A stretch of 49,975 bases of DNA from Methanobacteriota archaeon (lineage in GTDB: Archaea > Halobacteriota > Methanosarcinia > Methanosarcinales > Methanosarcinaceae), in assembly GCA_016841265.1 (NCBI GenBank), contig JAENZL010000021.1, forward strand, positions 10,193-60,167, written 5' to 3'. Made by a program: the position numbers and the translations under genes. Position 1 is the stretch's first letter. Every line of letters begins with the position of its first letter. A model generated the notes under the pieces. That model saw only the letters and a program-made list of their open reading frames with translations. It did not search any database and had not been told where the DNA came from. Of the stretch, positions 14,233 to 29,673 are shown in pieces.

Positions 14233-15120
14233 ATGCCCGTACTGAGTATTATCGCCTGCAGGATGTTTGAGGATGAGCTTGCCCATGTCCTTTCGAGTGA
14301 TAGGGAACTGGAGCAGTTGATTGTGGTAGAAAGCAGGGATAGTTTCGGGTTGCTCCGGAAACTCAAGTCCGAAAACTGCCTGCATAGAACAGCACCCCTG
14401 GACAGAGTTCCCTTTCTCCTGGGAAAAGGACACGGATCTGGCTCCGGCTCCGGCTCCGGCTTCATGACAATTGCAAAACCCCTGCTCAAACTTCCTTTTT
14501 TCAGGAAAATTCACGAGAAAATGAAGCTCAAAGCGGCTCACAGGGTAATGGTGGTCGTAAACCCGCTCAGGCTGGGGCTTCATGACGATCTCGACCTCCT
14601 TAAGTCTGAAGTCTACGGAAAGATCAGGGAGATGGCAGCGTTCTCGGACGGAATCCTCATCTTTTACTGTAGCTGCGGAGAAGCCTTTGAGAATCTGGAA
14701 GAGGACTTTTCGGGCTTTGAGTGCCCCCTTTACTGCCTGAAAGACGGAAACGGGGAAGTCGTGGCAGACTGCATAAGCGCCGCCCTCGGGGGAAACGCCG
14801 CCTACGACGAAACCATGTACGCCTGCAGGGGGACTGGCGCCCTCTACTTCACGCCCATGTGGGCTTCGGCCTGGAAAGAGATGGCAGAAGAAAGGAGGAA
14901 ATCCCGGAATCTCGACGATAATTACCTGAAGGACCCGAGATACTCACGGCTTGTAAAACTCGATACCGGCCTTTCATACGACCCCGATTTCAATAAAAAT
15001 GTCCGGGAGTTTGCCCGCACCTTCAACATGGAAATTGTGGAAGTAAAGGGAAGTGCGGAACTTGCAGAAAAGTCCTACATGACTGCCAAAAAAGGTGTTA
15101 TCCAGCATACTCTAAAATGA
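14233..15120 (+). CDS. DUF1638 family protein
   Basis: A 295-residue cytosolic protein that fits the DUF1638 family, which in methanogens is often found near corrinoid methyltransferase genes; no such genes are present here. Features seen are MPVLSIIACRMFEDELAHVL at the start, the conserved GILIFYCSCGEAF, CPLYCLKD, an aromatic region ALYFTPMWASAWKEM, and LDTGLSYDPDFNKNVREFA near the end. Several conserved cysteines suggest metal or cofactor binding, but the biochemical role is not known. Residues about 64-74 hold an insertion GHGSGSGSGSGF, encoded by a short in-frame ggctcc repeat. AGAGG precedes the ATG. A gap of about 165 bases separates it from the next gene on the same strand. Confidence 0.8.
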   Translation: MPVLSIIACRMFEDELAHVLSSDRELEQLIVVESRDSFGLLRKLKSENCLHRTAPLDRVPFLLGKGHGSGSGSGSGFMTIAKPLLKLPFFRKIHEKMKLKAAHRVMVVVNPLRLGLHDDLDLLKSEVYGKIREMAAFSDGILIFYCSCGEAFENLEEDFSGFECPLYCLKDGNGEVVADCISAALGGNAAYDETMYACRGTGALYFTPMWASAWKEMAEERRKSRNLDDNYLKDPRYSRLVKLDTGLSYDPDFNKNVREFARTFNMEIVEVKGSAELAEKSYMTAKKGVIQHTLK

Positions 15121-15285: not shown

Positions 15286-15723
15286 ATGGAACAGACAACA
15301 TCCGATAGGGAAAACTTCTGGAACGCAGAAGCCTTTGCAATCATCACTGACAAAACAAAGCCTGCCATGAAATGGACTGTAGCCGAACTTAAAAACCGGG
15401 AGAAAAATGTCTACGTAGTCGACCTTTCCGACTCCCCGGACCCCGACTCTCTGAAAAGCGTCTCAGACCTGCCCGTGGGAATCGACCATGTTGTGATCGG
15501 CGTAACAAAAAGCGAACCTTCCGACCTGCTCCCTGCCCTTAAAGAAAAAGGCGCAAAAATAATCTGGTTCCACTGGAGAACCGAAACCGAAAAAGCCCTT
15601 GCCGTCTGCAAAGAACAGGACCTCGAATGCGTGACCGAAAGGTGCCCGATGTTGTACCTCGGAAGCGGGATAAGTATACATGGAGTGCACAAGGCGATTG
15701 CGAAGATGACGGGGAAGTATTGA
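15286..15723 (+). CDS. CoA-binding domain protein (YccU-like)
   Basis: A 145-residue single-domain Rossmann protein of the CoA_binding_2 type. It shows the typical order: FAIITDKTKPAMKWTVAELKNREKNVYVVD, then DHVVIGVTKSEPSDLLPALKEKGAKIIWFHWRTE, and the end CVTERCPMLYLGSGISIHGVHKAIAKMTG. Family members bind CoA in structures, but a physiological role is not established. No ligase or transferase domain is attached. A GGGGG ribosome site precedes the ATG. The 3' end is followed by 255 bases with no convincing gene before the convergent STAND gene. Confidence 0.82.
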   Translation: MEQTTSDRENFWNAEAFAIITDKTKPAMKWTVAELKNREKNVYVVDLSDSPDPDSLKSVSDLPVGIDHVVIGVTKSEPSDLLPALKEKGAKIIWFHWRTETEKALAVCKEQDLECVTERCPMLYLGSGISIHGVHKAIAKMTGKY

Positions 15724-15978: not shown

Positions 15979-18900
15979 TTAATCCTCCTTTTCCCCATCC
16001 ATATCATGAAGGAATTGCAGGAAATTATTTCTTATTCTTGTGGTGTTCGGATGGTTTTGTCCCAATTTTTCCATAGCTATGCTGAAAGCCCGCTGATAAA
16101 GTGGTAGTGCTTTTTCGTACTCTCCCATTTGACGATAGAGTCCTGCTAGATTGTTTAGTGAGGCTGCAACACGTGGGTGTTGCAGCCCAAGTACCTTTTC
16201 CCTAATTTCAAGTGCCCGCTGATAAAGTGGTAGTGCTTTTTCGTACTCTTCTATCTGACGATAGAGTTCTGCGAGATTGTTTAGTGTTGTTGCAACATGT
16301 GGGTGTTGCGTCTCGAGCACATTTTCCCTAATTTCAAGTGCCCGCTGATAAAGTGGTAGTGCTTTTTCGTACTTTCCCATTTGATGATAGAGTAATGCGA
16401 GATTATTTAGTGTGGTGGCAACATCAGGGTGTTGTGACCCGAGCACCTTTTCACTAATTTCAAGTGCCCGCTGATAAAGTGGAAGTGCTTTTTCGTACTC
16501 TCCCATCTGACGATATAGTTCTGCGAGATTATTGAGAGTTTGAGCAACATCAGGGTGTTCCGATCCAAGCACTTCTTCTTTTATTTCATAAGATTGTTTA
16601 TAATATGAGATTGCTTTTTCGTACTCTCCCATATTATCATAGAGTACTGCGAGATTACTGAGGGTTGTTGCAACAGATGGGTGTTGCGGCCCGAGCATCT
16701 TTTCATATATTTCAAGTGCCCGCTGATAAAGTGGTAGTGCTTTTTCGTACTCTCCCATCTGACGATATAGTTCTGCGAGATTATTGAGAGTTTGAGCAAC
16801 ATCAGGGTGTTCAGGCCCAAGAACAGTTTCACGAGTCCTAAGGGCACGCTGATAAAGTGGTAGTGCTTTTTCGTACTCTCCCATCTGACGATAGAGTGCT
16901 GCGAGATTGTTGAGAGTTTGAGCAACATTAGGGTGATCAGGTCCAAGAACAGTTTCACTTATTTTAAGATCACGCTGATAAAGTGGAAGTGCTTTTTCGT
17001 ACTCTCCCATATCATAATAAAGTAATGCGAGATTGTTTAGCGTTGTTGCAACAGATGGGTGTTGAGGTCCCAGTACTTTGTCACGGATGTCAAGTGCCCG
17101 CTGACAAAGTGGTAGTGCTTTTTCGTACTCTCCCATATTATCATAGAGTACTGCAAGGTTGTTGAGAGTTTGAGCAACATCAGGGTGATCAAGTCCAAGA
17201 GCAGTTTCCTGAGCTTTAAGTGCCCGCTGATAAAGTGGTAGTGCTTTTTCGTACTCTCCCATATTATCATAGAGTACTGCGAGATTACTGAGGGTTGTTG
17301 CAACATGTGGGTGTTGCGGACCCAGTACATATTCACTTATATTCAGATCACGCTGATAAAGTGGTAGTGCTTTTTTGTACATTCCCATCTGATTATAGAG
17401 TTCGGCAAGATTGTTGAGGGCCTCTGCAACAGATGGGTGTTGGGGTCCCAGCACCTTTTCACGAATGTCAAGTGAATGGTGACAAAGTGGTAGTGCTTTT
17501 TCGTACTCCCCCATTCTTTCATAGAGTCCTGCAAGATTGATTAGCGTGTTGGCAACATGTGGGTGTTGTGTACCCAGCACCTTTTCACGAATGTCAAGTG
17601 CCCGCTGATGAAGTGGTAGTGCTTTTTCGTACTCTCCCATCTGATGATAGAGTACTGCGAGATTGTTTAGCGAGTTGGCAACATGTGGGTGTTCCGGTTC
17701 CAGATTAGCTTCCAGTATTTGTTGCGTTTCTTCATAAATTGGGATAATTAATTGCCAGAATGCGGCTCTGTAAAAAGGATCTGAGGTGGAAGTAAACCAG
17801 TTGAATAGTTCTTCGGCTTCGAGGGCTTCTTTTGCGTGGTAAAAGGCTTCGGCCAGGGCGCTTTCGTGTTCAGGAGTGATTGTTTTGATGTCGATGTCTT
17901 TTATCTGGTTACTATAATAAGTACACATAAAGCTGTGGGCTTCTTTTTTCAAATCTTGAGCTTGGTAAACCTGCAGGCTCTTTCTCATGAGTGAATGCAA
18001 TTGGAGTTTCCCTTCGGTTTCCTGGACAAAGGAGAATCTGTTCAATTCCGAAAAAGCTGTGAGGGGATAACCAGTATTGAAATTATTGATTAATGCTGTG
18101 AAGATTTCTTTATTCCAGAAACGGGGAGTTGAAAGAACTTTCAGGGTTTCTTTTTCCGGAACTCCCAGGTATTTCATAAATCTGTCAAAGATTTCACTTC
18201 GAGTTTTGGCAAAATCATCAGGTTTAGGAGAACTGGTCTTTGAGATTTCGGTGTATGTATCAACAGCAAGTTCAAGGTAATAAGGAACACCTTCACTACC
18301 CTCAATTATTACTTTTTGAATCTTCTCTTCTTTAATTCCACAGCGATTAAGAAAGTCAAGGGCATCTTTTTCAGGGAGTTTTTCGAGTTTGTATTGCTTA
18401 AGGTAATTATTCCAGTCTTTGTCGGCTTCTTCCCAGCGGAGTTCCTCTCTTCCGCAGATTACCCAAAGGGATGATTTTGGCAGGTTTCCAATAAGTTGTC
18501 TTATCCATTCATCTCGGGAATTAAAACTTCCCTGCCCTCTTTCCTTTTCCCAGAGAGCTTCATAGCTGTCTATGAAGATAACTGCCGATTTTGAAGTATT
18601 TTGCAAGTAGTCTGAGAGGTCTTGTGCAAAGAATACAGGAAGCATTTTTTCAATATCCAGAGCTTCCATATCTGGGAGTCTTGCGATTTCCTTTTCTCTC
18701 TTTAAAGACCATTCCTTAAAACGATCAGGTGCTCTTTCCACAACACTTTTTATGCTGCTGTAATTTATTGAGAAAAGACCGCCAAATGAATCAAGAAGAT
18801 CCGTTACAATGCTGTCTTCGGAGTATCCATCTCTTGAAAGGGGAATCTGAGGGTTGACTTTTCGCCAGTATGTTGCATGTGCAATATCGAATAAGTGGAA

Positions 18901-19230
18901 TTTGACACCACATTTTTGATCCAATTCGTTTTTCAAGATTCCAAGAAATTTATCCATTTGTCTATGGGACTCTATGCTGAAATCAACCGTAGCCCAGATA
19001 ACACCTGTATTCTGGTATTTTTCGTTATATTCATCAAGCTTTTTTGGCAGTTCTTTTCGCAAACTGGTCTTGCCGATTCCGCCTATCCCATAGTAAACCA
19101 GAACGCTGTAATCTTCTTTGCCAATATTTTGGAAGGCGGTTTCAAATGCTTCGATGAATTCTTCTCTGTCAACAAATGGTCGATCTTCTTTTTCAGATAC
19201 AGGTGTAGGACAAACTGCCAATTTTTCCAC
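15979..19230 (-). CDS. STAND-type NTPase with 13 kinesin-light-chain-like TPRs
   Basis: A 1083-residue protein. Residues about 18-330 are an NTPase of the STAND/NB-ARC kind: Walker A GIGGIGKT (48-55, Lys54), Walker B AVIFIDSYEAL (Asp221), a following VICGREEL with Arg261, and a GVPYYLELAVD GxP region near 325. A winged-helix-like part extends to about 420. Residues 514-1060 are 13 complete 42-residue TPRs of the NNLAxLYxxMGEYEKALPLYQRAL pattern plus a half repeat. In characterised STAND proteins such repeats sense a ligand and nucleotide binding drives oligomerisation; signalling or antiviral defence is possible but not shown. The start is GTG at 19230, or TTG at 19221, which has GGTGG five bases upstream. 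There is no separate effector domain. Confidence 0.88.
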   Translation of the reverse strand: MEKLAVCPTPVSEKEDRPFVDREEFIEAFETAFQNIGKEDYSVLVYYGIGGIGKTSLRKELPKKLDEYNEKYQNTGVIWATVDFSIESHRQMDKFLGILKNELDQKCGVKFHLFDIAHATYWRKVNPQIPLSRDGYSEDSIVTDLLDSFGGLFSINYSSIKSVVERAPDRFKEWSLKREKEIARLPDMEALDIEKMLPVFFAQDLSDYLQNTSKSAVIFIDSYEALWEKERGQGSFNSRDEWIRQLIGNLPKSSLWVICGREELRWEEADKDWNNYLKQYKLEKLPEKDALDFLNRCGIKEEKIQKVIIEGSEGVPYYLELAVDTYTEISKTSSPKPDDFAKTRSEIFDRFMKYLGVPEKETLKVLSTPRFWNKEIFTALINNFNTGYPLTAFSELNRFSFVQETEGKLQLHSLMRKSLQVYQAQDLKKEAHSFMCTYYSNQIKDIDIKTITPEHESALAEAFYHAKEALEAEELFNWFTSTSDPFYRAAFWQLIIPIYEETQQILEANLEPEHPHVANSLNNLAVLYHQMGEYEKALPLHQRALDIREKVLGTQHPHVANTLINLAGLYERMGEYEKALPLCHHSLDIREKVLGPQHPSVAEALNNLAELYNQMGMYKKALPLYQRDLNISEYVLGPQHPHVATTLSNLAVLYDNMGEYEKALPLYQRALKAQETALGLDHPDVAQTLNNLAVLYDNMGEYEKALPLCQRALDIRDKVLGPQHPSVATTLNNLALLYYDMGEYEKALPLYQRDLKISETVLGPDHPNVAQTLNNLAALYRQMGEYEKALPLYQRALRTRETVLGPEHPDVAQTLNNLAELYRQMGEYEKALPLYQRALEIYEKMLGPQHPSVATTLSNLAVLYDNMGEYEKAISYYKQSYEIKEEVLGSEHPDVAQTLNNLAELYRQMGEYEKALPLYQRALEISEKVLGSQHPDVATTLNNLALLYHQMGKYEKALPLYQRALEIRENVLETQHPHVATTLNNLAELYRQIEEYEKALPLYQRALEIREKVLGLQHPRVAASLNNLAGLYRQMGEYEKALPLYQRAFSIAMEKLGQNHPNTTRIRNNFLQFLHDMDGEKED
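16053..17691 (-). repeat. 126-bp tandem repeats encoding the TPR array
   Basis: Thirteen in-frame 126-base units inside the STAND gene. Stretches such as gtggtagtgctttttcgtac recur nearly unchanged, so DNA identity is far above what protein constraint requires. Recent amplification or gene conversion is the likely cause. Confidence 0.9.
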
Positions 19231-19474
19231 CGCCAGAAATGCAGGTTAGATTAAAATTTCCAATCTGTGAATGTGTTATGAACTTGCATTATATTACACT
19301 ACCTAAATTCCTTCAATTACAAAACCAGAAGTCTTCTCCGTCAAAAACAGGGAAAGGCCCGAGCTTGAGCTCGGTGAAAACCAGGTTTAAGACAGCTATT
19401 CCGGCAGCTTCGCTTGAATTAAAAATCAACATCATCGGCGCCGGTTTACTCAAAGATATCCCTTAACTTGAAAA

Positions 19475-19763
19475 GAAAAAAAGAAAAAAAGAAAAAATTA
19501 AAAGTGGAGGGTGTTTTGTTGATCAGGAGTAAGTGAGATTTGCTTCGTTTTTGGAAGAAAAGTTTGCGCTCCCATCTAAAAAAAACCTGGAAATTCCGAT
19601 CGGATTTTTTAGGAGGTCCGAACGGAGAGATTTTCCTTTTTCTGGGAAGAGTTATTGAGATTTGGCTCACGGGGGGATGTGAGTATCTCTTTCTTATCTC
19701 TTTATCTTGTGATGTTTTTAGTGGAGTAGGTGTTTGCTAGAAGATGTTAAAGAGATGAGAACG
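19475..19763 (-). ncRNA. predicted small RNA, copy 1
   Basis: Predicted from a minus-strand TATA box (AATATATA, 19787-19794) with A-rich upstream element, a start about 26 bases downstream, and an end in a long T-rich tract (19471-19504 read on the minus strand). The RNA holds a hairpin with a CTCAC/GTGAG stem and a C-rich loop (19666-19683, loop ATCCCCCC). It also contains CACCCTCCAC and GGACCTCCT, which are complementary to ribosome sites. The only ORF across it runs through the terminator tract and is not kept in copy 3, which argues against coding. It could mask ribosome sites in target mRNAs; that is inference. Confidence 0.55.
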
Positions 19764-19786
19764 CAAGTTATACTAGGAGCTCGAGG

Positions 19787-19800
19787 TATATATTATTTTT
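19787..19800 (-). promoter_or_regulatory. TATA box and BRE of small RNA copy 1
   Basis: On the minus strand the sequence reads AAAAATAATATATA, an A-rich factor B element followed by a TATA box. The same sequence is conserved exactly at 20469-20482 and 21167-21180. Confidence 0.6.
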
Positions 19801-20156
19801 AACACAAAATGTTATTAATATCAAAGTTCTTAGCTAATGGTTCTAATATATAGACCAAATACTAACATTATATGATCTTACTAACAGTAAGCTGCCAGCA
19901 AAGAGTTGAGATTTTTCCAGGCGGCTGTACAACCCTGTTTTTCACCTCAATTCCGGTTCTGCATTCACCATAAGAAGCCCTTTGCAGCAGGGAGGGAAAA
20001 GACCCGAGCTTGAGCTCGGTGAAAATCAGATGAGAAAGCCAGATGAGAAAGCCAGGTGAAAACCAGGTTTAAGACGGCTATTCCGGCAGCTTCGCTTGAA
20101 TTAAAAATCAACATCATCGGCGCCGGTTTACTCAAAGATATCCCTTAACTTGAAAA

Positions 20157-20445
20157 GAAAAAAAGAAAAAAAGAAAAAATTAAAAGTGGAGGGTGTTTTG
20201 TTGATCAGGAGTAAGTGAGATTTGCTTCGTTTTTGGAAGAAAAGTTTGCGCTCCCATCTAAAAAAAACCTGGAAATTCCGATCGGATTTTTTAGGAGGTC
20301 CGAACGGAGAGATTTTCCTTTTTCTGGGAAGAGTTATTGAGATTTGGCTCACGGGGGGATGTGAGTATCTCTTTCTTATCTCTTTATCTTGTGATGTTTT
20401 TAGTGGAGTAGGTGTTTGCTAGAAGATGTTAAAGAGATGAGAACG
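20157..20445 (-). ncRNA. predicted small RNA, copy 2
   Basis: Nearly identical to copy 1 at an offset of 682 bases, with TATA box at 20469-20476, C-loop hairpin at 20348-20365 and T-tract end at 20153-20186. The promoter and terminator signals are both kept, so this copy is likely to be expressed as well. Confidence 0.55.
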
Positions 20446-20904
20446 CAAGTTATACTAGGAGCTCGAGGTATATATTATTTTTAACACAAAATGTTATTAA
20501 TATCAAAGTTCTTAGCTAATAGTTCTAACATGTAGGCCAAACACTAACATTATATTATCTTACTAACAGTAAGCTGCCAGTAAAGAGTTGAGATTTTTCC
20601 AGGCGGCTGTATGACCCTGCATTTCACATCAATTCCGGTTCTGCATTCACCATAAGAAGCCCTTTGCACCAGGCAGGAAAAAGACCCGAGCTTGCGCTCG
20701 GTGAAAGCTTGGTGAAAAACAGGTTAAAAACAGCTATTCCGGCAGTTCACTGAATTAAAAATCAACATCATAGGCACCGGTTTACTCAAATATACTCACC
20801 CGGCTTTAAAATTCGGAATTTTTGCATCAAAATGAGATGTAATAACCCAATATAATTCTGAAAACCAAAACCTGGATGAGTGTATATCCCTTAACTTGAA
20901 CCAA

Positions 20905-21143
20905 AAAAAATAAAAAATTAAAAGTGGGGGGTGTTTTATTGATCAGGAGTAAGTGAAACTTGGTTTGTTTAGGAGGAATGTTTGCGTTCCCATCTGAAAA
21001 AAAAACGGAAGATTTTTTTTATTGGAAGAGTTATTGAGATATTTGGCTCACGGGGGGGTGTGAGTTTCTCTTTCTTATCTCTTTATCTTGTATGGTTTTT
21101 GTTGTGTAGGTGTTCGCTAGTTGATGTTAAAGAGATGAGAACG
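20905..21143 (-). ncRNA. predicted small RNA, copy 3 (diverged)
   Basis: A shorter and diverged copy with TATA box at 21167-21174 and T-tract end at 20903-20923. The hairpin at 21047-21064 keeps its CTCAC/GTGAG stem and a loop of seven C, and CACCCCCCAC is also kept, while the sequence between them has changed. This pattern of conserved promoter, C-rich loop and terminator with a variable middle is what a functional RNA would show. Confidence 0.5.
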
Positions 21144-21423
21144 CAAGTTATACTAGGAGCTCGAGGTATATATTATTTTTAACACAAAATGTTATTACAT
21201 ACCTAAGTTCTTAGTCAATTATTCTAACTTTTAGACCAAATGGATAACATTATATGATCTTACTAACAGTTCGCTGCCAGCAAAAAGTTGAGATTATTCC
21301 AGGCGGCTGTATGACCCTGTTTTTCGCATCAATTTCAGTTCTGTATTCGCCTTAAGAAGTTCTTTGCAGCAGGTAGGGGAAAGTCCTGTATGTGTCGGAC
21401 TGATTTTTGAAAGAATTTTTATG

Positions 21424-21478
21424 TCTTCCTTCAGTCTTCCTTCAGTCTTCCTTCAGTCTTCCTTCAGTCTTCCTTCAG
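21424..21478. repeat. five tandem copies of an 11-bp repeat
   Basis: tcttccttcag is repeated five times perfectly, just past the stop codon of the minus-strand TPR gene. It is short enough to vary by slippage. Confidence 0.92.
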
Positions 21479-21501
21479 TCTCCTTCCGTCTTCTGTTTGC
21501 C

Positions 21502-22953
21502 TTATCTATCGTTTCTCTCCATCTTCTCATACAGCGCCAGCAGATTATTCCTCGTGATCTTGAAATAAGGGTGGTCGATTCCTAACTCCTTTTCAATGAT
21601 GCCGAGCGCCCTTTCGTACATCTCGCTTGCGGTTTCGTATTCGTCCATGCTTTCGTGCAGGCCTGCGAGGTTGTTGAGGGTTGTGCCGACGTCCATGTGT
21701 TCGGAGCCGAGGGATTTTTCGGTGATTTTGAGGGCGCGGGTGTAGAGGGGGAGGGCTTTTTTGTGTTCGCCCATCTGGCGGTAGAGTTCGGCGAGGTTGT
21801 TCAGGGTCTTGGCAACTTCAGGGTGCTCTTCGCCAAGGAGCTTTTCCCGGATGGCGAGGGTCTTTTCGTAGAGTTCCAGGGCTTCTTTGCACCTGCGCTT
21901 CCGGACATAGACGCCTGCCAGGTTGTTCAGGGTGTTGGCATAGCCCATGTGCTCCATTTTTCCGAGCTTTTCAAAGATTTCCAGGGCACGGGTGTAGAGG
22001 GCGAGGGCTTTTTCAGGGCTGCCGGTATTGTAATAGAGCAGGCCCAGGTTGTTCAGGGTCTGGGCTACCTGAGGGTGATCGGGGCTGAGGGACGTTTCCT
22101 GGAGTTTGAGGGCTCTTCCGTAGATTTCCTCTGCCTCGTCCATCCGGCCCATCTCCTCCGAAAGCAAAACGCCCAGGTTGTTCAGGGTACCTGCAGTGTA
22201 GGCCTGGAACTTTACGTTTTCCGGAGCGGCTTCCCTGAGTATTTCGAGGTGCTCGAGAGCCCGGCGGTAAAGCTCTTCGGCTTTTTCAGGCTCTTCCGTG
22301 CCCCTGTAGAAAAACGCCATCCTGTTCAGGGTCCTGACGGTTTCCAGGTTCCCGGGGTATTCGGGATTTTCGGCGTGCTCGAGAGAGAAGACTTTTTCAT
22401 GAATTTCGAGGGCTCGTTCGTAGAGGGGGAGGGCTTCGGCTTTTTTGTCCATGAAAAAGTAGAGGACTGCAAGGTCACAGAGGGTGTTTCCGGTCTCAAG
22501 GCTATCGGGGCCGGTTTTCGTTTCCCGGATGGCGAGAGCTCGGGTGTAGAGGGGGAGAGCTTCTTCATACTTTCCCAGATACCTGTAGATCCCCGCAAGG
22601 CCGTTCAGGGCTGCTGCTGTTGCCGGGTGCTCGGGCCCGAGTTTCTCTTCGGCTATATCCAGGACCTGTTCATACATCGGGGAGAGCAATCTCCAGGAAG
22701 CTGAGCGGTAGAAGGGCTCAGCATACCAGGTGAACCAATTGACCAGCTCTTCGGGCCCTAGCTCTTCCTTCGCACGCCGGAAAGCTCTTTTCAGGACGGT
22801 TTCGTCTTCAGGGGTGATCAGTTCGGGGTCCAGGTCTTTTAATAGACTGCTGTACTCTTCGAGGCTCTTCAGATCTTCTTTCGCTTCTATTCCCCTGACT
22901 TTCACTCTCACTTTTTTCATCCCAATCTCCGTGCTCTCTGTTGAATCATTCAT
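21502..22953 (-). CDS. TPR protein related to the C-terminal half of the STAND protein
   Basis: A 483-residue protein of eight to ten kinesin-light-chain-like TPRs (for example TLNNLAELYRQMGEHKKALPLY). Residues 30-85 (ITPEDETVLKRAFRRAKEEL, then ELVNWFTWYAEPFYRSASWRLLSPMYEQ) match the segment just before the TPRs of the STAND protein at 15979-19230 (ITPEHESALAEAFYHAKEAL, ELFNWFTSTSDPFYRAAFWQLIIPIYEE). The NTPase domain is absent and is replaced by a short N-terminus. Its repeats are more diverged and less regular in DNA than those of the STAND gene. AGGAGGGG lies seven bases before the ATG at 22953. It is probably cytosolic and protein-binding; a regulatory or decoy relation to the STAND protein is speculative. 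Confidence 0.85.
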   Translation of the reverse strand: MNDSTESTEIGMKKVRVKVRGIEAKEDLKSLEEYSSLLKDLDPELITPEDETVLKRAFRRAKEELGPEELVNWFTWYAEPFYRSASWRLLSPMYEQVLDIAEEKLGPEHPATAAALNGLAGIYRYLGKYEEALPLYTRALAIRETKTGPDSLETGNTLCDLAVLYFFMDKKAEALPLYERALEIHEKVFSLEHAENPEYPGNLETVRTLNRMAFFYRGTEEPEKAEELYRRALEHLEILREAAPENVKFQAYTAGTLNNLGVLLSEEMGRMDEAEEIYGRALKLQETSLSPDHPQVAQTLNNLGLLYYNTGSPEKALALYTRALEIFEKLGKMEHMGYANTLNNLAGVYVRKRRCKEALELYEKTLAIREKLLGEEHPEVAKTLNNLAELYRQMGEHKKALPLYTRALKITEKSLGSEHMDVGTTLNNLAGLHESMDEYETASEMYERALGIIEKELGIDHPYFKITRNNLLALYEKMERNDR

Positions 22954-23444
22954 CAATTAGCCCCTCCTGAACAAAAAATCGAATATTGAAACTTTTAGTG
23001 TAAATATTTAGGAGCAATCCTATATTACAGTATCACGTTCAAAATTTTTCTAATAAATCTAAACCCAGGTCAACCGCTGGCTTCCAGATTCCGTGCCCAG
23101 CCACGCTCGCCTCAGGCGAGCGGCTTTTGCTGTTGTAAAATGATGAAAAAGATACAGTAGAATAAGTGATTTTAAAAGATGTTGGCCAAGAAGCAGAAAG
23201 TGAGTAAATTACTCTATGAAGTTTTTGGTTTGAGACGTAATCACATCTTCCGGAAAAAATAGATTAAAAATTGCAGCTGTGAAGAAAGGGGAAAATAATT
23301 TCAGGTACGAAGTTCGGATTTCTGGCGTGAGAATATGCTGGGTCCTTAAGGTTAATTTTTTTCTTACCCCTTCTTCTTTCTTTTTTAACTTTGGGAAAGG
23401 CCGCAAAGCTGCGCTTTGCGTGTGCTGCTGCTGATGTTGGGAAG
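22954..23444. other. 491-base gap with two perfect hairpins
   Basis: CGCTCGCC-TCA-GGCGAGCG lies at 23104-23122 and CGCAAAGC-TGC-GCTTTGCG at 23402-23420. The second is just past the sugar kinase stop codon and could mark its 3' end, although no clear T-tract follows. A possible 65-codon minus-strand ORF (23209-23406) has no ribosome site and overlaps the second hairpin, so I do not call it. Confidence 0.6.
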
Positions 23445-24449
23445 TTAATGGTTGCTCCGGTACCTGACCGGTTCAGGCTTTAATCCCTTCAGTTTCTCGA
23501 TTATTTCATCCGAATATTCAGGCACTGCGCCGGGTTTCGATGCTACGTAAGTCCCGAGGGCACAGGCATAAGAAGCGGCTTCAAAAAAGTTGCAGCCTGA
23601 AAAGTAAGCATAAAGGAAGCCTGCGGAAAAAGCATCTCCTGCTCCTACGGTGTCGGCTACTTCTATAGATGTTGTTTTGATTTCTTCGTAGGCGCCTTCA
23701 TTGTTTCCATTATGGTAAACCGCTACTCCCCCGGCTCCTTTCGTTATGCAGATGATTGAGATGCAGGGGTACTTTTCAACTAGCAGGCGGCAGAAATCCT
23801 CGCAGGTGCAGATCGTGGGAGTATTAAATAGCAGCCCGGAAATTATAAAGGCTTCCTCCGAATTCATTTTCACTATGTCAGCAACCGCCAGGGAAGTTTC
23901 AATCCACTCTTTTTCGTAGAAACCGGGCCTGAGGTTTACATCGTAAAAAAAGTGCTTTGCCCTGAGGACTGAAAACAGCCGCTGAAGTGTATTTCTATTT
24001 GCTTCCGAGCGCTGGGCAAGGGTCCCGAAGCAAAAAACGTCCCATTCTTCCGCAGCAAGGGAATCCGTTTTTTCAGCGTCAACCTTGATTGCATCCCAGG
24101 CTACATTTTTGTGAATCGTAAAGTGCGGGATTCCCTCCTCTTTCAGTTCCACAGTAACGGATCCGGTGGGCCTTTTCTCATCGATGGATATGTATGAGCT
24201 GTCAATTCCGAGCTTTCCCGCCTCATTCAAGAGTTTGTTCCCGAGTTCATCTTTTCCTACGGCTGAAATCACGGCAGGTTTTGCTTCCGATTTTATTCCC
24301 GATCTTATTCCCGATCTTATTCCTGATTTTATTCCCGTTTTTTCTCCGATTTTCGCGAGGTGGGCTGCAAGGTTAAAGGGAGCCCCTCCGAGATGGGCTG
24401 AGCCGTTGATGATATCGAAGAGGGCTTCTCCGAATGTGAGGATTTTCAT
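23445..24449 (-). CDS. PfkB family carbohydrate kinase (fructokinase-like)
   Basis: A 334-residue ribokinase-superfamily enzyme that would phosphorylate a sugar with ATP. The start MKILTFGEALFDIINGSAHLGGAPFNLAAH is the substrate-binding N-terminal signature, with the GGAPFN form typical of fructokinases. The catalytic C-terminal motif is DTVGAGDAFSAGFLY, with the Asp of GAGD as base. Residues about 40-56 carry an unusual insertion, GIKSGIRSGIRSGIKS, encoded by a 15-base tandem repeat. An in-frame TTG at 24494 would add 15 residues with no homology; I chose the ATG at 24449, where family members begin. It follows the secreted-protein gene by 55 bases and may be cotranscribed. Substrate is not certain. 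Confidence 0.85.
   Translation of the reverse strand: MKILTFGEALFDIINGSAHLGGAPFNLAAHLAKIGEKTGIKSGIRSGIRSGIKSEAKPAVISAVGKDELGNKLLNEAGKLGIDSSYISIDEKRPTGSVTVELKEEGIPHFTIHKNVAWDAIKVDAEKTDSLAAEEWDVFCFGTLAQRSEANRNTLQRLFSVLRAKHFFYDVNLRPGFYEKEWIETSLAVADIVKMNSEEAFIISGLLFNTPTICTCEDFCRLLVEKYPCISIICITKGAGGVAVYHNGNNEGAYEEIKTTSIEVADTVGAGDAFSAGFLYAYFSGCNFFEAASYACALGTYVASKPGAVPEYSDEIIEKLKGLKPEPVRYRSNH
24296..24345 (-). repeat. 15-bp in-frame tandem repeat inside the sugar kinase gene
   Basis: Variants of cccgatcttatt repeat three to four times and encode SGIRSGIRSGIKS near the N-terminus. The insertion lies in a region that in ribokinases forms part of the lid, so it may be a loop expansion. Confidence 0.8.
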
Positions 24450-28215: not shown

Positions 28216-29673
28216 TTAAACTCTTATCAACACAATAGTAAGTGTTGCCATAAATATTCCAAGCGTAATCCAGCCAAGTAATCCCTCTAATGTTGCCCAT
28301 TTCCTCATGCTATCTTCTGGATACCAGTCTCCATAACCCACAGTGGTGAATGTGGTCAAGCTAAAATATAAAGCATCCTTCCAGGATACCTCCTGAGATT
28401 TATTATCACCTTTTTTAACCAATCTACAAATTCCCGGACCCTTAAAATAAAACCTAATAGGTATTTTTTTATTTTCATGTTTGGCCAGGGATATTGATGG
28501 CCCTTTTGAATAAATAAAGCCAAATAATATTACAACAGTACTCCCAAAATAGAGTGTATGTGAAGGTCGTACACCGTAGCCACAGGTGAACCAGGTAATA
28601 AGGTCTATCCACTTTGATATTTCGTACCATTCTTTATGATGCGCTTGACACTCTTTTCTGTAGTTGTAATATACAGTGTCTGCATCCTCATATTGTCCCT
28701 GATTCCTGTAATATTTCATGAATATTTGACTATTTTTTCCATCCAAAATCAAATTTTCAGATGTATCTGGCCCCACAAGTTCAGTAGTATCACTAAATTT
28801 CGCTCCCCAGAAGTAGGCATCGTTAAATTTCGCCTCCTTAAAGTCTGCAGAATCGCTAAAATTGGTTTCCCTGAAGTCAGCTTCGTTAAATTTTGCCCCA
28901 CTGAAGTCGGCATCGTTAAATTTCGCCCACCCAAAGTTGGCATAATCGTTAAAATTCGTCCCCTTGAAGTCAGCATCATTAAATTTTGCGTCACTGAAGT
29001 CAGCGTCGTTGAATTTCGCCCCCTTGAAGTCGGCGTCGTTAAAATTCGTCCCTCCGAATTCGGCAGAATAACCAAAATTCACCTTCTCAAAGTCGGCATC
29101 GTTAAAATTTGCCCCCCCGAAAAAAGCATAATCGTTAAAATTTGCCCCTCTGAAGTCGGCATCGTTAAAATTCGCCTCCCAGAAGTATGCAGAATTACCA
29201 AAATTCACCTCCCTGAAGTCGGCAGAATTGTTAAAATTCACCCCCGTGAAGCCGGCAGGATTGTTAAAATTCGTCCCCTTGAAGCCGGCAGAATTGCTAA
29301 AAAGTGCATTCGCGAAATAGAAATTATTTTTAAAAATAGAATACTGTATTGTGATGTTGCTTTTGACAACCTTTATTTTGTCATCTATTCCGACAGAATG
29401 CAATAGTTCCTCATCGATGAATTCTGATTCCAATAATTCATAATAGTTTGGATTTGGAATCGTTTCAAGATTTATTTCACTTAAATCCAATTCCCCAACT
29501 ATACTGCAGTTTTCAAGATATATATCTGTCCCATTCTCTATTTGTTTTAAAATATCTTCCGCTTTAATTTCACTGTCAACTTTTCTGTATTCAATTGCCG
29601 AAACCGTTGAAGACAATAAAAGTACTACTAATACTGACAAAAGTGTACAAAAAATCAAAGTTTTGAATTTCAT
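28216..29673 (-). CDS. pentapeptide-repeat potassium channel
   Basis: A 485-residue membrane protein. Residues 1-26 are a signal peptide or first membrane segment (KTLIFCTLLSVLVVLLLSSTVSA). Residues about 110-300 are pentapeptide repeats of the AxFxx and ADFxx kind (NFNDADFRGANFNDYAFFGG), which fold as a square beta-helix. Then come a membrane helix (HTLYFGSTVVILFGFIY), a pore region ALYFSLTTFTTVGYGDWYPED with the K+ filter TVGYGD near residue 445, and a final helix. This is the two-helix channel design. If the N-terminus is exported, the repeats would lie outside the cell, but topology is not certain. AGGG lies six bases before the ATG. Confidence 0.88.
   Translation of the reverse strand: MKFKTLIFCTLLSVLVVLLLSSTVSAIEYRKVDSEIKAEDILKQIENGTDIYLENCSIVGELDLSEINLETIPNPNYYELLESEFIDEELLHSVGIDDKIKVVKSNITIQYSIFKNNFYFANALFSNSAGFKGTNFNNPAGFTGVNFNNSADFREVNFGNSAYFWEANFNDADFRGANFNDYAFFGGANFNDADFEKVNFGYSAEFGGTNFNDADFKGAKFNDADFSDAKFNDADFKGTNFNDYANFGWAKFNDADFSGAKFNEADFRETNFSDSADFKEAKFNDAYFWGAKFSDTTELVGPDTSENLILDGKNSQIFMKYYRNQGQYEDADTVYYNYRKECQAHHKEWYEISKWIDLITWFTCGYGVRPSHTLYFGSTVVILFGFIYSKGPSISLAKHENKKIPIRFYFKGPGICRLVKKGDNKSQEVSWKDALYFSLTTFTTVGYGDWYPEDSMRKWATLEGLLGWITLGIFMATLTIVLIRV

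Follow-up and report, generated by a model that had tools for sequence, protein, structure and literature searches.

The TPR-only gene and its STAND neighbour

The window, by which we mean the whole stretch of 49,975 nucleotides analysed here, carries on its reverse strand a gene for a TPR-only protein of 483 amino acids (21502-22953, stop included), for which orthologues are known, and a paralogous STAND protein of 1083 amino acids (15979-19230) composed of an NTPase (17917-19230), a linker (17656-17916), and a TPR array. The open reading frame of the TPR-only gene is intact and spans 21502-22956 on the reverse strand, with an in-frame TTG directly preceding the ATG at 22951-22953. This ATG is the likely start because the Shine-Dalgarno motif AGGAGG (22963-22968) sits 9 nt upstream of it. 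From this start, the reverse-strand frame encodes a charged N-terminal tail (aa 1-30, 22864-22953), the linker that is common to the STAND protein (aa 31-105, 22639-22863), eight TPRs (aa 110-457, 21583-22626), and a C-terminal cap helix (aa 462-482, 21508-21570).

TPR_12 was the top Pfam match of the protein (281.6 bits, cut-off 30.1), and the best 25 of the 31 families listed were TPR or weaker helical-repeat matches, with no P-loop or NTPase family among them. Its repeated helix pairs of 34-42 aa, which score above the Pfam cut-off and form a superhelix in the model, place it in the TPR superfamily, whereas the P-loop and NB-ARC/NACHT-type domain of STAND NTPases are found in the neighbour and not in this protein. 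The first 438 aa of the neighbour match NB-ARC at 24.5 bits, just over the cut-off of 23.5, and a BLASTP comparison of its NTPase with the 33 TPR-only frames, the one in the window included, returned no match in any of them. Among the PADLOC defence models, the TPR-only protein matched two generic 'TPR' models only. It also falls short of the model for the TPR protein of FxSxx-COOH systems (NF040586, at least 300 bits), scoring 149.5 bits; the STAND neighbour scores 375.1 bits, with its best stretch within the TPRs. The earlier note on this DNA had described a protein that keeps the linker of a STAND protein some 2.3 kb away but has no NTPase, and this description is borne out both by Pfam and by BLASTP, in which the two proteins share 49% identity over 445 aa (E 1e-118), and by the gap of 2256 nt between the TPR-only stop and the STAND open frame.

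The alignment between the two proteins begins at residue 35 of P0001, inside the linker. A linker profile of 73 positions, built from 19 rows, matched 33 of 237 genomes of the class, all within three genera of one family, and within that scan the linker occurred in both protein types. In a sample of the phylum, 20 of 392 genomes were matched, and the single match outside the family was weak (E 2e-4, two stops inside). Given this restriction to three genera, the shared linker amounts to more than a generic likeness among TPR proteins. When compared to STAND NTPases with TPR sensors of the NB-ARC/TPR type, the likeness lies in the linker and TPR module present in both the window's STAND protein, a type that we would liken to Avs, and the TPR-only protein, which differs in having no NTPase domain.

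A further difference concerns the repeats, which are fixed in number and diverged in the TPR-only proteins, while some STAND arrays hold near-identical ones. A crude regular expression, which missed repeats in several STAND proteins, counted 6-9 repeats in the TPR-only proteins, the most similar pair being 0.48-0.57 identical. The STAND proteins are of differing length, and certain arrays among them contain repeats that are 0.9-1.0 identical, but this contrast is not universal, as the most similar repeats are just 0.48 and 0.57 identical in the STAND proteins of G085 and G002:C29, respectively. At another locus, L012, identity over the TPRs was 50%.

Predicted structure and nearest known folds

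An AlphaFold2 model of the TPR-only protein, built with 31 orthologues (pLDDT 89.8, pTM 0.83), places the eight TPRs and the final helix in one continuous superhelix, of which the four linker helices (residues 31-38, 48-64, 67-83, and 87-105) form the N-terminal cap. The first 25 residues are unordered (pLDDT <50), and the tail is also where conservation is poorest (0.36). Conservation peaks in helix A of TPR5-8 (0.91-0.98) and in the C-terminal cap, where the mean majority is 0.94.

The best solved structure in Foldseek was that of APPBP2 (8jal, E 3.4e-11), followed by kinesin light chain (KLC) TPR entries, with OGT and LGN also among the best. APPBP2 is a TPR substrate receptor of CRL2, and the match covers most of the length with a TM score of 0.56; however, identity is only 19%, the rmsd is 7.4, and the ubiquitin-ligase setting is lacking. 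The resemblance to kinesin light chain extends to sequence: phmmer matched KLC1 (E 1.5e-47) as well as a bacterial KLC-like chain, the TPR-only protein has TPR_12/TPR_10-type repeats with LNNLA helices, and most KLC rows among the Foldseek matches listed share 33-46% identity over approximately 180-260 columns. The protein thus has the sequence and fold of KLC-type TPRs. In contrast, the heptad coiled coil with which the KLC N-terminus binds the heavy chain is not found in the model, which has no long N-terminal coiled coil and instead continues from the poorly predicted residues 1-25 into the short capping helices, so that eight TPRs stand behind a four-helix cap. Kinesin is not known from archaea.

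On the strength of the KLC resemblance and the conservation pattern, we infer that the TPR-only scaffold may bind peptides and that the helix-A face of TPR5-8 would be the groove for a peptide of a conserved partner. The conservation of these helices can also be due to structural packing instead of binding.

Distribution and gene neighbourhood

The NTPase-less gene, searched for with its 102 N-terminal residues, turned up in 33 of 111 genomes of the family: in all four of the window's genus (g1), in 28 of 30 in genus g13, which we take to be Methanosarcina, and as one incomplete copy in G007 (g4). The two g13 genomes in which it was not found are 75% (G094) and 60% (G100) complete. Most of the Methanosarcina-type methanogens examined therefore carry the TPR-only gene, and they do so in one copy each, a count that follows from the presence of an NTPase match just upstream of each of the remaining linker matches.

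The STAND NTPase query matched in 22 of the 111 family genomes and 18 of the 30 in g13; a further match, in G184, was weak (E 3.3e-5). Among the 33 carriers of a TPR-only gene, twelve had no STAND NTPase match (G003, G007, G077, G081, G082, G083, G084, G091, G093, G097, G099, and G102); completeness is 90% or higher in ten of them, though some of the absences may reflect assembly gaps. Conversely, G008 holds a STAND fragment with the TPR-only gene undetected. The 40 NTPase matches, with G008 left out and four mergers of pieces that appear to belong to one gene, reduce to 35 STAND loci (intact, broken, or surviving as remnants) across the 21 genomes with both genes. Internal stops were listed in five STAND matches: four were TAG (G074:C1:2036522, G087:C72:17327, G088:C175:3125, and G089:C342:3969), which the host organisms may read as pyrrolysine, and the fifth (G086) was TGA.

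In seven of these 21 genomes, a STAND gene or a remnant of one lies no more than 12 kb from the TPR-only gene, always downstream and on the same strand, for a total of eight loci (G000, G001, G002 twice, G088, G092 as a remnant, G095, and G096). By chance, approximately 0.2 would be expected under a rough Poisson estimate that assumes 4 Mb genomes and independence, the latter being breached by the three g1 genomes. The adjacency exceeds chance and the neighbourhood is non-random. The gap between the TPR-only gene and the STAND open frame can be as short as 181 nt (G088) or 215 nt (G095), and the type of STAND protein beside the gene varies, with NTPase identities to that of the window of 87% in G001, 85% in G096, 54% in G095, 46% in G002:C29, and 44% in G088. 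In G095 (L072), the STAND frame spans 1690 aa, and the likeness among its TPR repeats reaches 98%. Adjacency may be under-counted because several contigs are short (3.8 kb in G088, 6.1 kb in G097, 9.1 kb in G090, and 9.4 kb in G089), and that of G003 stops 1.6 kb beyond the TPR-only gene.

These results bear on the proposal in the earlier note that the TPR-only protein is a regulator, decoy, or partner of the STAND protein. As an obligate relation this is unsupported, since a STAND NTPase match was lacking in 12 of the 33 genomes that carry the gene; what survives is the recurrent adjacency above chance. Neither do NTPase-less relatives and full STAND genes always sit side by side, as 27 of the 35 STAND loci are not within 12 kb. 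The note had itself named relatives found widely with no STAND neighbour as evidence against its proposal, and the STAND-less genomes largely provide this.

The two genes in the window are separated by three copies of a repeat with a period of roughly 680-700 nt (19368-21386, no strand assigned), spaced 682 and about 700 nt. A search of Rfam with positions 19000-23500 gave no match up to E 1. With a 178-nt piece as query, the element was found in 4/4 g1 and 29/30 g13 genomes, mostly several times in each and often in tandem. It lies between both genes in G000, G001, and G002, and in G003 it follows the TPR-only gene before the contig ends. The g13 copies that share a contig with the TPR-only gene are more than 100 kb away, except for a weak match approximately 5 kb off in G090. 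Because the repeat is dispersed across genomes of both genera, its location between the genes, which the earlier note had placed correctly, is not evidence that they form one system.

No constant same-strand partner of the TPR-only gene was seen among neighbour clusters present in at least six loci. A gene with a CoA_binding_2 domain (15286-15723, forward strand in the window) is its convergent downstream neighbour in several relatives; it lies approximately 1 kb from the TPR-only gene, measured between midpoints, in seven genomes, and the STAND gene sits between the two in G000, G001, G002, and G096.

Evolution and selection

In a tree of the linker (112 columns), one branch with a support of 87/83 separates 33 TPR-only rows from 27 STAND rows, and its support rises to 100/97 when the incomplete G007 is omitted and 32 TPR-only rows remain. 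The tree is unrooted and can be read with a midpoint only, as linker matches outside the family are absent or too weak to serve as an outgroup. Seven duplicate or cut copies of loci represented twice and the fragment L058, which has no core, were dropped, and broken STAND loci whose full sequence was not retrieved (e.g. G075:C10) do not appear in it. The position of G095, a g13 genome, differs between trees, being beside g1 at the midpoint root of the full-length tree and with g13 on the linker tree (98/75).

The open frames of 32 TPR-only orthologues encode 455-549 aa. Over the TPR part, dN/dS ranged from 0.049 to 0.113 when STAND-less genomes were paired (five pairs) and from 0.061 to 0.186 for nine further pairs; the gene is under strong purifying selection also where no STAND NTPase was found. 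The TPR-only protein is thus an old paralogue of the sensor half of the STAND protein and not a recent fragment. Its inheritance appears to be mainly vertical, judging from the single gene per genome and the separate clade formed by g1. In G076, a DDE transposase gene (L084:10222-11214) stands where the 5' end and Shine-Dalgarno of the TPR-only gene should be, and loss of the normal start has therefore been tolerated at least once.

Start codons of the TPR-only gene

The signals upstream of the TPR-only gene were compared in 31 orthologues, which include the window and exclude G076 (transposase) and G007 (incomplete, with a 236 aa frame). The Shine-Dalgarno is found at the same place as AGGAGG in 28/31 and as AGGAG in 30/31. 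Further upstream on the same strand, a TATA-box-like element, TAATATAGG (23019-23027), to which we ascribe a putative promoter role, is retained as TATAG in 30/31 and in full as TAATATAGG in 16/31 upstream stretches. The start codon itself is far less constant: the position occupied by ATG in the window holds ACG in 14 orthologues, ATG in 11, ATA in five, and GTG in one. Three of the 14 ACG genomes have an ATG one codon earlier, leaving 16 of 31 with ACG or ATA and no ATG, GTG, or TTG just before. No in-frame canonical start lies upstream in 14 of these 16; the others are G082, with a GTG three codons before, and G095, with TTGs two and eleven codons before. Five of the 16 (G081, G083, G087, G093, and G096) have no canonical start ahead of the conserved linker, while nine have a later ATG, GTG, or TTG in the tail that could be used, only one of which (G074) is preceded by a Shine-Dalgarno-like motif. 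Parsimony on the best tree, in which several forks are weak, gives nine changes among five start states when ATG-then-ACG is counted apart.

The tail shows a weak excess at codon position 3 (1264:1318:1701) when compared to the linker region (2244:1647:5066), so that the case for its being translated depends mostly on the open frame and the start site. Neighbouring genes served as a control: across eleven sets and 109 rows, the start column held ATG 102 times, ACG, AAG, TTG, and GTG once each, and gaps three times, under a rule that picks the column with the most canonical starts and so favours ATG. The same rule hit an internal ATG column in the TPR-only set, for which the start column was determined separately. 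The lone ACG in the control belongs to the CoA_binding_2 gene of G079 (L082), which has no canonical codon within 25 codons.

Scans of 420 kb each of G083 and G074, the TPR-only locus included, returned 16 strong Shine-Dalgarno motifs followed by a canonical start in each genome, and 13 (G083) and 8 (G074) non-canonical candidates, a tally that includes double counts and chance-like frames. ACG was found at the TPR-only gene only, while CTG in G083 was found at genes for an rRNA adenine dimethylase (RrnaAD, 213 bits) and a Thioredox_DsbH-domain protein, the latter having its CTG in the start position behind AGGAGG (L171:2995). Also in G083, a GNAT-domain gene behind AGGAGG (L168:5778) has its first canonical start at codon 44 of the frame.

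That translation starts at ACG or AUA in about half of the TPR-only copies read is well suggested by these comparisons. A codon other than AUG, GUG, or UUG behind a strong Shine-Dalgarno is found in 16 of 31 orthologues and not in the window copy, a statement made at the level of sequence. Rare or poor starts have precedents in infC, which encodes IF3 and begins with AUU, and in eIF1, whose start lies in a poor context. The TPR-only gene shares with these a conserved ribosome-binding site and a rare start codon, but its product is a TPR scaffold and the window copy has ATG. Chloroplast ACG starts (PMC9845219), which are edited to AUG, resemble those of the TPR-only orthologues in having ACG at the start position, though C-to-U editing would leave the ATA starts unexplained. 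Literature searches of an open-access library, judged by titles and abstract openings, gave no recognised report of ACG or AUA starts in archaea or of this TPR gene. If they are used, such starts would be missed by gene callers limited to ATG, GTG, and TTG, and start-codon fidelity in archaea could be tested on a natural gene. A conserved archaeal gene would then have kept its ribosome-binding site while its start codon shifted among AUG, ACG, and AUA.

A possible class of genes gated by start stringency

The ksgA/dim1 gene (Pfam RrnaAD) offers a parallel. Its start was read in 40 genomes, of which three order-level rows are unaligned at the start. In 29 g13 genomes, the codon behind the Shine-Dalgarno (L185:8849 in G083; L206-L243) is CTG in 27 and TTG in two (G095 and G089), with no close match to the gene in G094. 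TTG is likewise the codon at this position in all four g1 genomes, G008, and three members of other genera of the family, and ATG was found there in none of the 37 family genomes read. Against a forced CTG start, eight of the 27 CTG genomes have an in-frame canonical codon 10-36 codons upstream, and G088 and G090 have one 10-14 codons downstream. The same literature searches, judged by titles and abstract openings, yielded no recognised report of ksgA starting with CUG.

When KsgA/Dim1 is lost in Haloferax or E. coli, non-AUG starts are over-represented among the proteins whose levels go up (PMC7897474). Ribo-seq of M. mazei found ATG in 79% of longer genes and CTG as the start of 5% of unannotated small ORFs (PMC11456600), and in Sulfolobus, non-canonical starts are selected against by aIF1 (PMC6237735 and PMC8211752). 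Together with the ksgA/dim1 starts, these findings make it reasonable to propose, as a tentative idea that we consider possible rather than probable, that Methanosarcina has a class of genes gated by start-codon stringency, to which the TPR scaffold (ACG/AUA) and ksgA/dim1 (CUG) would belong. If so, a weakly started KsgA would tune itself, and levels of the TPR scaffold would rise as ribosome maturation or initiation fidelity drops.

Proposed role of the TPR-only protein

In Methanosarcina and its nearest relatives, the product of the TPR-only gene is probably a conserved TPR scaffold that binds peptides, acts on its own, and is paralogous to the STAND sensor. We hypothesize that the helix-A face of TPR5-8, with its LNNLA repeats, would bind a peptide belonging to a conserved partner in the cell, and that the charged N-terminal tail would act as a flexible lead. 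The neighbouring STAND protein may use a related copy of the scaffold module as its sensor, and STAND genes may have settled repeatedly just downstream of the core gene, either through tandem origin or through recombination between like repeats. The conserved Shine-Dalgarno would drive translation, with a putative ACG or AUA start in about half of the genomes read, and given such a start, the protein is probably made in small amounts or in amounts that depend on how stringently start codons are selected.

A scaffold that serves the STAND protein as its dedicated partner, regulator, or decoy, whereby the shared linker and TPRs would co-assemble or compete for ligand, could account for the recurrence of the same gene order in seven of the 21 genomes with both genes, for the gaps of 181 nt in G088 and 215 nt in G095, and for the occupation of one place by several STAND types (NTPase identity from 87% down to 44%). 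However, the gene persists in 12 genomes where no STAND NTPase was matched and is under equally strong selection in such genomes, G008 has a STAND fragment with the TPR-only gene undetected, and 27 of 35 STAND loci lack a TPR-only gene within 12 kb on their contig. We therefore regard this explanation as rather unlikely, and a dedicated decoy was rejected as the main reading. Since the adjacency exceeds chance, a functional link between the two proteins in some species may nevertheless exist.

The dependence could instead run in the opposite direction, with the STAND sensor being a copy of the core protein fused to an NTPase, resembling an integrated decoy, such that phage or stress factors acting on the core protein would trip the STAND protein. 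Confinement of the linker, within the class scan, to these genera in both protein types, the wider presence of the TPR-only gene in g13 (28/30 genomes vs 18/30 with an NTPase match), and the tandem neighbourhood would all be consistent with such a fusion, but the tree is rooted at its midpoint only and the same data would fit a STAND protein that lost its NTPase long ago, and we consider the fusion quite unlikely. A recently truncated STAND copy in decay would explain the missing NTPase, shared linker, and tandem position; it is contradicted by the separate clade, the open frames of 31 orthologues, the conserved upstream signals, and the low dN/dS, which make it highly improbable. Pseudogene status was also rejected as the main reading. 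The favoured reading, that of a conserved scaffold, distinguishes a slowly evolving core protein from a patchily distributed STAND sensor that is based on a related module, and thereby raises the question of whether host proteins are borrowed by immune-type sensors.

Other features of the window

Between G096 and the window, the TPR-only proteins are 63% identical and the STAND proteins are far closer (NTPase 85%), which suggests transfer of the STAND gene. The window also holds a DUF1638 gene with a Gly-Ser-rich run (14233-15120), whose homologue in G096 is 88% identical and lies near the similar STAND NTPase; the joint likeness suggests transfer of a segment. Elsewhere, positions 28216-29673 encode a protein in which pentapeptide repeats are joined to an Ion_trans_2 channel domain.
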